Shown here piece after piece: positions 21,020 to 25,253 of a stretch of DNA of 64,000 nt. The DNA lies in assembly GCF_016907835.1 (NCBI RefSeq), contig NZ_JAFBCT010000001.1:248001-312000 (forward strand), written 5' to 3'. The stretch's first letter is position 1; every line of letters starts with the position of its first letter. A program made the position numbers and the translations under genes. The stretch is from Agromyces cerinus. GTDB taxonomy: Bacteria > Actinomycetota > Actinomycetes > Actinomycetales > Microbacteriaceae. The notes under the pieces are model-generated. The model was not told the origin of the DNA. It saw only the letters and a program-made list of their open reading frames with translations, and searched no databases.

Positions 21020-21430
21020 ATGACCATCGCACTCCAGTACACCAACGTCACCGTCAACGATGTCGACGAAGCGCTCGCCTTCTACCGCGATGCGCTCGGC
21101 CTCGAGGTGCAGAACGACGTGGCATCCGGCGACCACCGGTGGGTCACGCTCGGCAGCGCCGCGCAGCCCGGCCTCGGCATCGTGCTCTCCGACCCGCACG
21201 CCGGCCGCTCGCGGGCCGACGGCGACGCGATGCAGGAGCTCCTCGCGAAGGGCGTGCTGCCGATGCTCGTGTTCCGTTCCGACGACGTCGACGCCCTCTT
21301 CGAACGGGTGAGCGCGTCGGGCGCCGAGGTGCTGCAGGAGCCGATCGACCAGGCCTGGGGACCGCGCGACTGCGCCTTCCGCGACCCCTCGGGCAACACG
21401 GTGCGCATCTCGCAGGCGCTCGCCGCCTGA
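21020..21430 (+). CDS. VOC family protein (glyoxalase/dioxygenase superfamily)
   Basis: 136 aa, two beta-alpha-beta-beta-beta units: QYTNVTVNDVDEALAFYRDALGLEV and LVFRSDDVDALFERVSASGAEVLQEPIDQAWGPRDCAFRDPSGNTVRISQ. This is the layout of glyoxalase-like and antibiotic-binding proteins; ligand unknown. TAACGT, whose TAA is the AraC stop codon, lies 7 nt before ATG 21020. The gene can therefore also be transcribed on its own as a leaderless mRNA. Confidence 0.88.
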   Translation: MTIALQYTNVTVNDVDEALAFYRDALGLEVQNDVASGDHRWVTLGSAAQPGLGIVLSDPHAGRSRADGDAMQELLAKGVLPMLVFRSDDVDALFERVSASGAEVLQEPIDQAWGPRDCAFRDPSGNTVRISQALAA

Positions 21431-21452
21431 CCCGTTCGATCCGCCGGCCGAT

Positions 21453-21478
21453 GGAACCGGGCGGGGTCATCCGGACAT
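21453..21478 (+). promoter_or_regulatory. Predicted ECF-sigma promoter upstream of the sigma gene
   Basis: GGAACC (21453-21458), 13 nt, CGGACAT (21472-21478). The same elements with exactly the same spacing occur twice between 23306 and 23439. This suggests that the sigma factor at 21626 drives its own gene. Confidence 0.65.
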
Positions 21479-21625
21479 TCCCTTGGTGAGCGGGACGGCC
21501 TCGGTGGGCCCGGTCCCAGAGGGAGAGCATCCAGTGGGTGACGACGAACGGCGCGACATCGGCACGCACGCGCCCGCGGCCGAGAGTGCGCGGGTCGCGC
21601 GATGCCCGGTTAGGCTGGCTCGACC

Positions 21626-22252
21626 ATGGATGCCGACGCCCGATCCGACGCGGCGCTCTGGCTCGAGGCCACCTCGGGTACGGAGGCGTCGTTCGGCGTG
21701 GTCTACGACCGCTATCGTGCGCGCATCTTCCGCAAGGCCTGTTCCCGGGTGTTCGATCGCACCGACGCCGAAGACGTCGTCGCGATCGTCTTCCTCGAGG
21801 CATGGCGCCGGCGCCACGAGGTGCGGTTCGTCGACGGTTCACTGCTGCCCTGGCTCCTCGTCGTGACCACGAACGTGTCGCTCAACATCGAGCGCTCGGG
21901 CCGTCGCTACCGTCGCCTGCTCGCGAAGCTGCCGGCCGCCGAGCACACGGCCGACCCGAGCCATGAGGTCGGTGCCCGGCTCGACAGCGAGCGGATGTCG
22001 CAGCAGGTCACCGCCGCGCTGCAGCGACTCGGCGCCAACGACCGCCGCATCGTCGATCTCTGCCTGGTCGATCAGCTGCCCATGGCCGATGTGGCGAACG
22101 TGCTCGACATCCCGGTGGGCACGGTGAAGTCCAGACTCGCGCGAGCACGCACGAGACTGCAGAAGGAGCTCGGCTCCCTGCGCGATCTCGACGAAGCCTC
22201 TCGGCCGACGAGCGGGGCGCAGTCTCCCCTCGACACGGGGGCCACCCGATGA
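21626..22252 (+). CDS. RNA polymerase sigma factor, ECF subfamily
   Basis: 208 aa. Region 2 (about 22-85, FGVVYDRYRARIFRKACSRVFDRTDAEDVVAIVFLEAWRRR) and region 4 (about 128-180, LQRLGANDRRIVDLCLVDQLPMADVANVLDIPVGTVKSRLARARTRL) are both present. The stop overlaps the ATG of the next gene (ATGA), as for sigma/anti-sigma pairs. A TAGGCT lies 9 nt before the ATG. A GGAACC-N13-CGGACAT promoter lies further upstream, fitting autoregulation. Confidence 0.95.
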   Translation: MDADARSDAALWLEATSGTEASFGVVYDRYRARIFRKACSRVFDRTDAEDVVAIVFLEAWRRRHEVRFVDGSLLPWLLVVTTNVSLNIERSGRRYRRLLAKLPAAEHTADPSHEVGARLDSERMSQQVTAALQRLGANDRRIVDLCLVDQLPMADVANVLDIPVGTVKSRLARARTRLQKELGSLRDLDEASRPTSGAQSPLDTGATR

Positions 22253-22752
22253 CCGCGCCCGAGATGCGTCCTGAACGGGATGCCGCGATCCGCACGATGC
22301 TCCTGGAGCACGTGCGCACCGAGCCGGCCGTCCAGGCGAAGAGCCGGCGACGCCGACTCTTCGCCTGGAGCGGCATCGGCGTGCTCGCGATCGGCGTCGT
22401 GGCGACCGCTGGGGCGGTGCTGATGCAGCCCGCGAGTGTGTCGAACGACGAGATCGTGCTCTGCATGACCGCGGCCGAGCGCGACGCCGACGGCGGTTAC
22501 CCGGGCGCGTCGGCCACGATCGTCTCGCCGAGCGGCGCCGGACGCGTCACCGACGCCATCGAGCTCTGCACTGTCATGTGGGAGCAGGGGGTGCTCGAGG
22601 CGGACTACGATCCCGCAGCGCCGAGCAACCCGCTTGGCCGCGTACCTGACGAGTTGCACGCCTGCGTGCTGCCCGATGGCAGCGCGGCCGTGGTGCCGTC
22701 GCCGAACGCGTCGATCTGCGCCGCGCTCGGCCTCGCCCCCCTCGTCGACTAG
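22249..22752 (+). CDS. Single-pass membrane protein coupled to the ECF sigma factor (candidate anti-sigma)
   Basis: 167 aa. Cytoplasmic N-terminus (1-38) ends in a basic stretch KSRRRRLFAW, one transmembrane helix (about 40-62, GIGVLAIGVVATAGAVLM), then an extracytoplasmic part of about 100 aa with four cysteines. There is no zinc anti-sigma motif (HxxxCxxC). Position and topology suggest it controls the sigma factor, but the sigma-binding domain is too short to be certain. The 3' end overlaps the convergent secreted-protein gene by 4 nt. Confidence 0.75.
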   Translation: MTAPEMRPERDAAIRTMLLEHVRTEPAVQAKSRRRRLFAWSGIGVLAIGVVATAGAVLMQPASVSNDEIVLCMTAAERDADGGYPGASATIVSPSGAGRVTDAIELCTVMWEQGVLEADYDPAAPSNPLGRVPDELHACVLPDGSAAVVPSPNASICAALGLAPLVD

Positions 22753-23306
22753 CCGAAGGTGCCGGTCGGGCGGAACACGATCGACTTCACCTTGTCGTTC
22801 AGGCTGCCGATCCCGTTGCACGTGGGCGTGCAGGTCAGTCGCAGGCCGCCGTACCCGGTCGTCGTGTAGAGGGATGCCCAGCACCCGTGCGACCCGACGG
22901 CGGAGCTGATGTTGCCGGTCCAGCCCGATGGCAGGCTCGAGAAGCCGAACAGCACGCCGTAGCATCCGCTCGAGCCCCAGAAGGTGAGACTCGAGCCGCC
23001 CTTGTTGATGTCGGAGTAGACCGTGCCGAGCGAGGTCGTGGCAGCGGCGAGGGTGCGGGTGGACGCGTCGGCGGTGCCGACGGCGCCGAGGTACCGGTCG
23101 ACGCTCGCCCGGTCGGCGAAGCAGACGGGCTGCGCCGGGGTCGTCGTCGTTCCGACGGGCTGCACCTCGACGGCGCAGTGCACGGCAGGGGCGGCTTTCG
23201 CGCCGGTCTCGTACGTCTCGGCCGCGGTCGCGGGCGAGGCCGCACCGAGGCCGGCGAATGCCAGCGTCGCCGCGAGTGCGGCGCTGATCACGTTGATGCG
23301 AGGCAT
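22749..23306 (-). CDS. Secreted beta/gamma-crystallin-like protein (peptidase inhibitor I36-like)
   Basis: 185 aa with a Sec signal peptide (about 1-28, cleavage after SPATA). The C-terminal half (about 98-185) has the Greek-key pattern of I36 inhibitors and microbial beta/gamma-crystallins: YSDINKGGSSLTFWG, LPSGWTGNISSAVGSHGCWASLY, GYGGLRLTC. Its cysteines could form two disulfides. Its promoter (23350-23375) matches the sigma factor's own promoter, so it is a likely target of that sigma factor. Whether it inhibits proteases or binds calcium or cell-wall components is open. Confidence 0.78.
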   Translation of the reverse strand: MPRINVISAALAATLAFAGLGAASPATAAETYETGAKAAPAVHCAVEVQPVGTTTTPAQPVCFADRASVDRYLGAVGTADASTRTLAAATTSLGTVYSDINKGGSSLTFWGSSGCYGVLFGFSSLPSGWTGNISSAVGSHGCWASLYTTTGYGGLRLTCTPTCNGIGSLNDKVKSIVFRPTGTFG

Positions 23307-23349
23307 CGGGTCTCCTCCTCATTCCGCCCGGGCGGCGGTCTGTACGGGT

Positions 23350-23375
23350 ATGTCCGGCATGGGCGACCGAGTTCC
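23350..23375 (-). promoter_or_regulatory. Predicted ECF-sigma promoter of the secreted crystallin-like protein
   Basis: On the minus strand GGAACT (23375-23370), 13 nt, CGGACAT (23356-23350), about 44 nt before the start codon. Part of a divergent pair: the -10 regions form a 12-bp inverted repeat GGTATGTCCGGC/GCCGGACATACC. Confidence 0.65.
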
Positions 23376-23387
23376 CTCGAATCCGAT

Positions 23388-23413
23388 GGAACCGACTCGC
23401 GCGAGCCGGACAT
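23388..23413 (+). promoter_or_regulatory. Predicted ECF-sigma promoter of the 38-aa membrane peptide
   Basis: GGAACC (23388-23393), 13 nt, CGGACAT (23407-23413), 25 nt before ATG 23439. Same motif and spacing as at 21453 and 23350. Confidence 0.65.
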
Positions 23414-23438
23414 ACCACTGTGAGCGACGGAGGCTGCG

Positions 23439-23555
23439 ATGCGACGAACAACCATGCTGACGACCACCATGATCGTCGGAGCCATGGCTGCGGCGGTCGC
23501 CATCGCGCTCGTCGTCGGCGGCGACATCGGGAGGGCGATGTTGTCGGGCATGTGA
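23439..23555 (+). CDS. 38-aa single-pass membrane peptide
   Basis: Encodes MRRTTMLTTTMIVGAMAAAV... ending in GGDIGRAMLSGM: basic start, one hydrophobic helix (about 10-28), short amphipathic tail. GGAGG lies 6 nt before the ATG, and a predicted ECF promoter precedes it. The end loosely resembles DUF6893-type small proteins. The convincing ribosome-binding site plus promoter make it a likely real gene despite its size. Confidence 0.62.
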   Translation: MRRTTMLTTTMIVGAMAAAVAIALVVGGDIGRAMLSGM

Positions 23556-23631
23556 GATGGCGTCGCCATGCCGCCGGTGCCGGCCCGTCGGGGGACACAG
23601 GCCGGCACCGCCGGGATGGGGGCGCGAACGC

Positions 23632-23667
23632 GAAGGGCCCCGACGAGCGAACTCGTCGGGGCCCTTC
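23632..23667 (-). terminator. Intrinsic terminator of the DEAD-box helicase gene
   Basis: Perfect 16-bp arms GAAGGGCCCCGACGAG and CTCGTCGGGGCCCTTC around CGAA, 17 nt after the helicase stop. It may also end transcription from the small peptide gene on the other side. Confidence 0.9.
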
Positions 23668-23684
23668 AGCATGTTCTGGGCGGG

Positions 23685-25253
23685 TCAGCCCTGTGCGCGG
23701 CGGTTGCCACGCGAGTTGCCCGAGGGCGAGACGAGGCTGCCGACGCGCAACGGCGCCTTGCCGCCCGAGCGGGCGTTCGTCGAGCGCTGCGCGCCCGTCG
23801 TCTGCGCGCCGCGGCCCTGGCCGCCGCCCTGCTTGGGTGCGTTCGCACGTGCCTCGGCGGGGCGACCCGAGCGGTCGCGACGGGGTGCGCCCCCGACATC
23901 CGCCTGACCGGCGTTGCCGTTGCCCCCACGGCCGCGGCCACGGCCCTGGCCGGCACCCGTACGTGCCTCGCCGCCGCGCTCGTCGCGAGCGGCGCGCTTG
24001 CGCTGCGCATTGGCGCCCTGCGAACGGCCGCCGCCGCCCTGCTGCTGGGTCTCGGCGCGCGGCGCCGGCTTCACGTATGGTGCGACGTCGCCGACGAGTG
24101 CGGTCACCGACGGGGAGGTCGCGGTGACCTGCTGCGGGGTGACGGTGATCGCGGCCTTGCGGAGCAGGGTCTTCAGGTCCTGCTTCTGCGCGGGCAGGCT
24201 GATGGTGACGACGTCGCCCTCGCTGCCGGCGCGGGCGGTGCGGCCCGAGCGGTGCAGGTACGCCTTGTGCTCCATGGGCGGGTCGACGTGGATCACGAGC
24301 TCGATGGCGTCGACGTGCACGCCGCGAGCCGCGACATCCGTGGCGACCATGACGTTGGCCGAACCGTCGGAGAACGCGGCGAGGTTGCGGTCGCGCTGCG
24401 GCTGCGACAGGTTGCCGTGCAGGTCGACCGCGGGGATGCCCTGCTCGGTGAGCTTCTTCGCGAGCTTCTTGGCGTGGTGCTTCGTGCGCATGAAGAGGAT
24501 GCGGCGGCCGGTGCCCGACGCGAGGGCCTTCACGAGGTCGTTCTTCGCGTCGACGTCGGCGACCTCGAAGACGTGGTGGGTCATCGCGGCGACGTGCGAG
24601 GTGGCCTCGTCGACCGAGTGCAGCACCTCGTTGTGGAGGAAGCGCTTGACGAGCTTGTCCACGCCGTTGTCGAGCGTCGCCGAGAAGAGCAGGCGCTGGC
24701 CGTCGGAGGGGGTCTTGTCCATGATGCGCGTGACGACGGGGAGGAACCCGAGGTCGGCCATGTGGTCGGCCTCGTCGAGCACGGTGATCTCGATCGCGTC
24801 GAGGGTGACGAAGCCCTGCTTCATGAGGTCTTCGAGGCGGCCCGGGCAGGCGACGACGATGTCGACGCCGGCGCGCAGCGCATCGACCTGGCGCTTCTGG
24901 TTGATGCCGCCGAAGATCGTCGTGGTCTTCAGGTCGTAGGCGGCGGCGAGCGGTGCGAGCACCGCGTCGATCTGCGTGGCGAGCTCGCGGGTCGGGGCGA
25001 GCACGAGGGCGAGGGGGCGGCCCGGGCGGCGACGGCCGCCGGCGAGCGAGGTGCCGAGGCGCGCCACCATGGGCAGCGCGAAGGCGATGGTCTTGCCCGA
25101 GCCGGTCTTGCCGCGGCCGAGCACGTCGCGTCCGGCGAGCGTGTCGGGCAGCGTGTCGACCTGGATCGGGAACGCGGTGGTCTTGCCGTCGGCCGCGAGT
25201 ACGGAGACGAGGGGGGCGGGCACGCCGAGCGTGCTGAAGGTGATGTCGGTCAC
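23685..25253 (-). CDS. DEAD-box ATP-dependent RNA helicase
   Basis: 522 aa. Helicase core 1-380: GKTGSGKTIAFALP (motif I), PTRELATQ (Ia), LDEADHM (II), FSATL (III), LHGNLSQPQRDRNLAAF (IV), VATDVAARGVHV (V), HRSGRTARAG (VI). A disordered tail of about 130 residues is rich in Gly, Arg, Gln and Ala (RGRGRGGN), as in cold-induced RNA helicases that remodel ribosomal or mRNA structures. GTG 25253 has AAAGG upstream. The gene has a leader of roughly 205 nt. Confidence 0.93.
   Translation of the reverse strand: MTDITFSTLGVPAPLVSVLAADGKTTAFPIQVDTLPDTLAGRDVLGRGKTGSGKTIAFALPMVARLGTSLAGGRRRPGRPLALVLAPTRELATQIDAVLAPLAAAYDLKTTTIFGGINQKRQVDALRAGVDIVVACPGRLEDLMKQGFVTLDAIEITVLDEADHMADLGFLPVVTRIMDKTPSDGQRLLFSATLDNGVDKLVKRFLHNEVLHSVDEATSHVAAMTHHVFEVADVDAKNDLVKALASGTGRRILFMRTKHHAKKLAKKLTEQGIPAVDLHGNLSQPQRDRNLAAFSDGSANVMVATDVAARGVHVDAIELVIHVDPPMEHKAYLHRSGRTARAGSEGDVVTISLPAQKQDLKTLLRKAAITVTPQQVTATSPSVTALVGDVAPYVKPAPRAETQQQGGGGRSQGANAQRKRAARDERGGEARTGAGQGRGRGRGGNGNAGQADVGGAPRRDRSGRPAEARANAPKQGGGQGRGAQTTGAQRSTNARSGGKAPLRVGSLVSPSGNSRGNRRAQG

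Follow-up and report, generated by a model that had tools for sequence, protein, structure and literature searches.

The 64,000-nucleotide (nt) stretch of the Agromyces cerinus genome analyzed here (the window; RefSeq assembly GCF_016907835.1, contig NZ_JAFBCT010000001.1, positions 248,001 to 312,000 of the forward strand) carries a compact module of four genes, encoding a sigma factor of the extracytoplasmic function (ECF) type, a single-pass membrane partner, a secreted protein and a membrane micropeptide. Three copies of the two-block motif GGAACY-N13-CGGACAT accompany these genes and are very probably promoters of the neighboring ECF sigma factor. This is a well-conserved, real regulatory module of the known ECF sigma kind, and as a whole it probably constitutes a small autoregulated ECF sigma regulon. 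Its features are given below in window coordinates, with protein lengths in amino acids (aa).

21453 to 21478, plus strand: putative ECF promoter of the sigma-partner operon, GGAACC-N13-CGGACAT; exact match, its end 147 nt upstream of the sigma ATG
21611 to 21616, plus strand: TAGGCT, putative housekeeping -10 element, 9 nt upstream of the sigma ATG; kept in 13 aligned clade loci
21626 to 22252, plus strand: ECF sigma factor, 208 aa; Pfam Sigma70_r2 and Sigma70_r4_2, PDB relatives
22249 to 22752, plus strand: single-pass membrane partner, 167 aa, probable anti-sigma sensor; conserved cysteines and model, helix by eye
22749 to 23306, minus strand: secreted beta/gamma-crystallin-fold (I36-like) protein, 185 aa; Pfam and fold match, signal peptide by eye
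23350 to 23375, minus strand: putative ECF promoter of the secreted gene, GGAACT-N13-CGGACAT; exact match, 43 nt upstream of the ATG
23388 to 23413, plus strand: putative ECF promoter of the micropeptide gene, GGAACC-N13-CGGACAT; exact match, 25 nt upstream of the ATG
23439 to 23555, plus strand: membrane micropeptide, 38 aa, with the C-terminal motif [VI]G[GS][DE]IGR; conserved in 12 Agromyces genomes

The sequence-only reading of this DNA had reported three sites with exactly 13 nt between the blocks, and all three were confirmed as exact matches, the variable base Y being C, T and C in site order. The -35 boxes of the two divergent sites are separated by 12 nt. The chance expectation for the motif in the window was 0.01, and three or more copies were obtained in 0/100 shuffles. 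In the complete own genome (G000, one contig of 3,977,730 bases), the pattern GGAAC-N14-CGGACAT returned the same three matches and its reversed control returned 0; matches scattered at random, which had been named as a sign against a regulon, were not seen, and only the three window copies were found. Likewise, GAACY-N13-CGGACAT gave 0 matches in 131 kilobases (kb) of other loci, a control that counted the N13 form only and consisted of 27 own-genome loci, chosen for near-miss sites or a single true near relative of the motif, and 15 distant-relative loci. A chance origin of the motif was ruled out by the low expectation, the three genome copies, this 131-kb control and the co-occurrence within Agromyces described below.

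Relaxing the pattern to GAACY-N{12,14}-CGGACAT yielded two further N12 matches in the own genome, both within stretches of long open reading frames, and these look like chance. When up to two mismatches were allowed, 96 motif matches were counted versus 39 for the reversed control; degenerate sites were therefore not separable one by one from the background, and a wider regulon built on such sites in the own genome was rejected, as no further site could be named. Two near-matches with two mismatches (G000:C1:1740449 and G000:C1:2385955) are identical over 26 bases and lie far apart, and perhaps belong to a repeated element.

The -35 block is of the type expected for an ECF promoter. According to the accessible part of one survey, ECF sigma factors typically read an AAC-type -35 element, and GGAAC is a known ECF -35 type (PMC8103513). 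GGAACY conforms to this in the three window sites and in all 33 exact sites of the clade loci, the latter having been selected by the GGAACY pattern itself. A strict sigma-70-type scan of positions 21300-23800 found no other promoter.

A search with the sigma factor against 100 relatives placed its close relatives in the same genus, and every one of the 100 had some sigma match. The exact motif was found in 20 of 60 Agromyces genomes (reversed control, 0/60), and it was present in 13/13 genomes carrying the clade sigma orthologue versus 7/47 genomes without it (Fisher p = 1.5e-8, indicative only because the genomes are related). The 13 orthologue-bearing genomes contained 53 exact matches, 33 at the locus and 20 elsewhere. 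In the comparison of the 13 Agromyces clade loci, window included, a site was observed upstream of the sigma gene in 13/13 (one with N14 and one with N12 and TGAACC), upstream of the secreted gene in 12/12 loci having that gene (one N12, one CGAACC) and upstream of the micropeptide gene in 12/12 loci having it (one TGAACC). The secreted gene and the micropeptide are both gone from the thirteenth locus, in G018, where one orphan site is left. What the sequences show directly is the motif copies, the order of the genes, the conservation of both and the co-occurrence with the sigma orthologue. The site before each orthologous sigma gene was one of the comparisons proposed by the sequence-only reading, and its assignment of the sites to the adjacent ECF sigma factor is supported by the co-occurrence and by the three kept positions. 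The exact N13 spacing stands as the rule here; it did not extend to all orthologues, in which N12 and N14 were seen.

Outside the clade locus, 27 exact sites were retrieved, 20 from clade genomes and 7 from others. The 20 are distributed over 10 of the 13 clade genomes, the own genome, G052 and G039 holding none. The earlier description of the regulon as self-contained therefore fits these three genomes and fails for the other ten. By reading, 12 of the 20 extra sites precede a plausible gene, which encodes a serine-hydrolase lipoprotein in four cases, a 32-aa peptide in three, a LuxR-type regulator in two, a small membrane protein in two and a lipoprotein in one. Pfam matched one of these hydrolases to PF00144 (E 4.3e-42) and one of the regulators to GerE (E 1.2e-12). 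The serine-hydrolase gene carries the site in four relatives, and its orthologue in the own genome (65% identity) has no site and retains the downstream TACAAT element. The own genome thus represents the core of the regulon, which is expanded in several relatives. The 32-aa peptides form a family with a YLPDPADEP-type ending, located directly after the extra motif copy in three genomes (L089, L096 and L102).

Beyond the genus, the partner profile matched 25/398 sampled genomes of the family in 16/85 genera, some of them weakly. The sigma gene, the partner gene and a convergent secreted gene occur together in Microbacterium, Cryobacterium, Rathayibacter, Frigoribacterium and Pseudoclavibacter. 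Of 15 loci outside the clade with a readable upstream region, 8 have GAACY-N12-14-CGGACAT before the secreted gene (present in L073, L075, L121, L124-L127 and L134; absent in L074, L077, L078, L122, L135, L137 and L138), L119 and L120 being left out of this count as they end at a contig edge. A site inside the 3' end of the sigma gene, upstream of the partner, was seen in L119, L120, L121 and L126. In the loci compared, a site before the sigma gene is typical of the Agromyces clade, since outside it only L137 has one. Near the cassette in other genera (L122, L124, L125 and L126), a site is followed by an unassigned, secreted-looking protein of 227-332 aa, in no case with a Pfam match at E of 0.01 or below. 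A 254-kb contig of Microbacterium rhizomatis has a near-identical cassette at each end (L119/L120), which may reflect a repeat or an assembly effect.

The 208-aa sigma factor contains only sigma-70 regions 2 and 4, as in ECF (group IV) factors, with Pfam scores of 33.5 bits for Sigma70_r2 (cut-off 24) and 47.6 bits for Sigma70_r4_2 (cut-off 25.7). Its PDB relatives are SigW, SigL, RpoE and CnrH (4cxf_A, E 7e-10). With regard to its own expression, about 55% of ECFs are autoregulated in the figures available from PMC8103513. The sequence-only reading noted that ECF sigma factors often drive their own gene, as the site kept before the sigma gene in every clade locus would allow here; a second element may allow other expression as well. 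Each of the 13 clade loci aligned has TAGGCT, TAAGCT or TATGCT 9 nt upstream of the sigma ATG, and no Shine-Dalgarno sequence was seen upstream of the sigma start. Alignment of the sigma leaders, which vary in length, revealed no other conserved element, and the strict sigma-70 scan lists no promoter at TAGGCT. The conservation suggests that TAGGCT is a housekeeping -10 element with a very short leader and that the sigma gene has a basal and an autoregulated promoter, so that sigma need not depend only on itself.

The sigma and partner genes overlap by ATGA, and the partner gene is directly 3' of the sigma gene in all loci where both were found. The partner comprises cytoplasmic residues ~1-36, one membrane helix (by eye) and an ectodomain with C72, C107, C139 and C157, the first three cysteines being invariant in 30 members and C157 present in at least 90%. 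The AlphaFold2 model has a mean predicted local distance difference test (pLDDT) score of 79.9, with a helix at 8-54 partly of low confidence and a small ectodomain mostly well predicted. Across 16 loci, sigma distances and partner distances show a correlation of 0.92, a value uncorrected for shared ancestry. Gene coupling, layout and this co-variation with sigma make it likely that the partner is an anti-sigma factor. The window partner had no Pfam match, and fold searches gave no convincing match among the listed folds. A relative search that scored the 7,997 best candidates only returned 63 proteins, the named ones nearly all "hypothetical protein"; the database name of relative P0024, "Septum formation-related", was not borne out by Pfam.

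The alternative that best survives is that the partner is an effector of the regulon and that sigma is controlled mainly by its own expression. Class I anti-sigma domains (ASDI) measure ~101 ± 33 residues, at least 50 in the published set as excerpted from PMC7406223. The partner has no zinc motif of the form Hx3Cx2C, which part of this class carries, having no cysteine in residues 1-40, and its cytoplasmic part of ~36 residues, by eye, is below that size; the effector reading draws on these features, on the lack of a firm family and on L119, L120, L121 and L126, in which the sigma-type site precedes the partner alone, as it would an output gene. However, a site before an inhibitor gene would equally give negative feedback, the partner directly follows sigma wherever both occur, and short anti-sigma segments exist, such as that of class II CnrY, described in the accessible text as two helices wrapping the sigma factor (PMC7406223, PMC4598750). 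The CnrY profile itself matched 1/30 partner members at E 0.03, near chance. On balance an effector role is conceivable and rather improbable, and the anti-sigma assignment is preferred.

Several observations weigh against a regulon of the neighboring sigma factor controlled by this partner. The partner fits no anti-sigma family firmly in Pfam, NCBIfam, PDB sequence or PDB fold comparisons. Tree support for the 13-member clade is only moderate (83/81). The three sites have CGGACAT in place of the CGT-type -10 element, which is common in ECFs and not universal; it is the usual form, and later classifications no longer require it, as far as the available text of PMC8103513 goes. One exact match each was carried by 7 of the 47 genomes without the clade orthologue (7 matches). 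Finally, a second Agromyces paralogue group (L074, L076, L077 and L078) keeps sigma and partner without the site; GCAACC-type variants detected by a position-weight scan near L074, L077 and L078 suggest that the promoter specificity of this cassette has changed.

These paralogous cassettes, together with 8 further matches of the sigma query in the own genome (E up to 0.001), would suit a reading in which the sites serve as promoters for another sigma factor encoded in the genome, with the neighboring ECF gene as just one of its targets. Yet the motif tracks the clade sigma orthologue (13/13 vs 7/47) although all 100 relatives have a sigma match, and the site accompanies the cassette in other genera too, which makes another sigma factor very unlikely. 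That the motif is an operator of a DNA-binding regulator, which two short blocks at near-fixed spacing would suit also, is more improbable still, because the blocks are not mutual inverted repeats and are oriented to each gene, lying 25 and 43 nt before two starts, the strict scan shows no other sigma-70-type promoter, GGAAC is a known ECF -35 type (PMC8103513, accessible part), and no other regulator gene occurs with the cassette in all clade loci, an adjacent AraC-type gene being present in 5/13.

The secreted protein matched Pfam Inhibitor_I36 (PF03995) at E 4.8e-4 with 20.5 bits versus a cut-off of 21.1. Across its family, the I36 profile matched 20/25 members at E up to 0.1 and Crystall matched 9/25. 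A fold comparison of its model (mean pLDDT 79.5) gave 17 PDB chains with E values up to 0.001, of which those ranked were beta/gamma-crystallins, and the fold match to clostrillin (3so1_E) reached E 9.1e-5 with a template modelling score (TM-score) by target of 0.74. The profile matches and the clostrillin-like predicted fold liken the protein to peptidase inhibitor family I36 and the microbial beta/gamma-crystallins, among them SMPI and clostrillin. It differs in scoring just below the I36 cut-off and in an extra N-terminal segment in which two cysteines are conserved. Of the earlier label, an inhibitor-like beta/gamma-crystallin-like protein, the crystallin part is borne out by the predicted fold; the inhibitor part derives from the fold and the sub-cut-off Pfam match.

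Strong matches to the micropeptide (E at most 4.3e-12) were obtained in 12/60 Agromyces genomes, all at this locus, and with respect to such matches it is confined to this locus in the genus; four weak matches (E 8.1e-4 to 6.5e-3) occur elsewhere in Agromyces. All 12 aligned members share the motif [VI]G[GS][DE]IGR, and the membrane helix was read by eye. In a protein database, 16 matches with E up to 1 were obtained; they are 38 to 56 aa long and have either no name or a generic one. The ratio of nonsynonymous to synonymous polymorphism (pN/pS) was 0.81 overall, and 0.12/0.22 and 0.12/0.41 in two close pairs, giving weak support to coding constraint.

From these comparisons we infer that the sites act as promoters and that the partner is an anti-sigma factor, and we propose a signal and roles for the outputs, as follows. 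The conserved housekeeping-type promoter near the sigma start codon would give basal sigma, which the partner would hold inactive through its short cytoplasmic segment. An envelope signal would be sensed by the cysteine-bearing ectodomain, and the freed sigma would read GGAACY-N13-CGGACAT, a step strongly supported by comparison. It would then turn on its own operon, yielding more sigma and more of the presumed inhibitor, and through the back-to-back promoter pair the secreted crystallin-fold protein and the membrane micropeptide. Since no other exact site exists in the own genome, the direct output there appears to be these four genes. The module probably serves envelope protection or remodelling, for which the secreted protein would bind either a protease or a component of the wall.

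A closed loop is also conceivable, in which the secreted protein binds the partner ectodomain or blocks an external protease that would cleave it, the micropeptide acts on the membrane helix of the partner and the entire direct output in the own genome amounts to tuning sigma release. We regard this as distinctly speculative and keep it open because of the RsiV precedent: in SigV-RsiV, the anti-sigma factor RsiV binds extracellular lysozyme in the account accessible from PMC4598750. The likeness lies in an anti-sigma ectodomain contacting an extracellular protein, such a contact being hypothetical in the present module; unlike lysozyme, the secreted protein is a regulon member and not a host enzyme. 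If true, the closed loop would represent an ECF circuit in which a secreted ligand and a membrane micropeptide are devoted to feedback.

With autoregulated pairs of an ECF sigma factor and a membrane anti-sigma factor, such as RpoE-RseA and SigW-RsiW, the module shares a two-domain ECF sigma factor, an adjacent single-pass membrane protein, a GGAAC-type -35 block, a site before its own operon and envelope or secreted targets. It differs from these pairs in the CGGACAT -10 block, the absence of a class I anti-sigma signature, the restriction to three exact genome sites and the presence of a micropeptide among the targets. It resembles CnrH-CnrY in the short cytoplasmic segment before one membrane helix, CnrH also being a PDB relative of the sigma factor; unlike CnrY, the partner has a four-cysteine ectodomain, a feature not described for CnrY in the available parts of PMC7406223 and PMC4598750. 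Literature titles on Agromyces and Microbacteriaceae ECFs, on I36 with sigma and on CGGACAT included none on this system among the matches listed, most subscription papers being outside the scope; the match on an Agromyces ECF sigma factor concerned carotenoid regulation.

The most surprising features are the three-site scope in the own genome and the tie of the micropeptide to the module. The putative regulon amounts to a minimal conserved ECF circuit, with one sigma factor, one likely sensor, two outputs and three promoters in a 4-Mb genome, and its evolutionary record is visible in sites gained, moved and lost. With a regulon this small, single-gene deletions could reveal the roles of the sensor, the crystallin-fold protein and the micropeptide. 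The module would further define a promoter with an unusual -10 block, and it gives an uncharacterized membrane protein family and a micropeptide a testable setting.

The remaining observations concern the gene layout. The secreted gene diverges from the micropeptide gene on one side and converges with the partner gene on the other, where the two stop codons share CTAG (22749-22752). The terminator scan lists no terminator between the partner and secreted genes, so their transcripts may overlap and interfere. The same 4-base CTAG stop overlap was seen in 8/17 tabulated loci. One further feature, identified by sequence and fold, lies 3' of the micropeptide gene:

23633 to 23666, no strand assigned: G+C-rich perfect hairpin, possible bidirectional terminator, without a T run

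The simple terminator scan lists none at this position. The hairpin sits between the micropeptide gene and a convergent RNA helicase gene.

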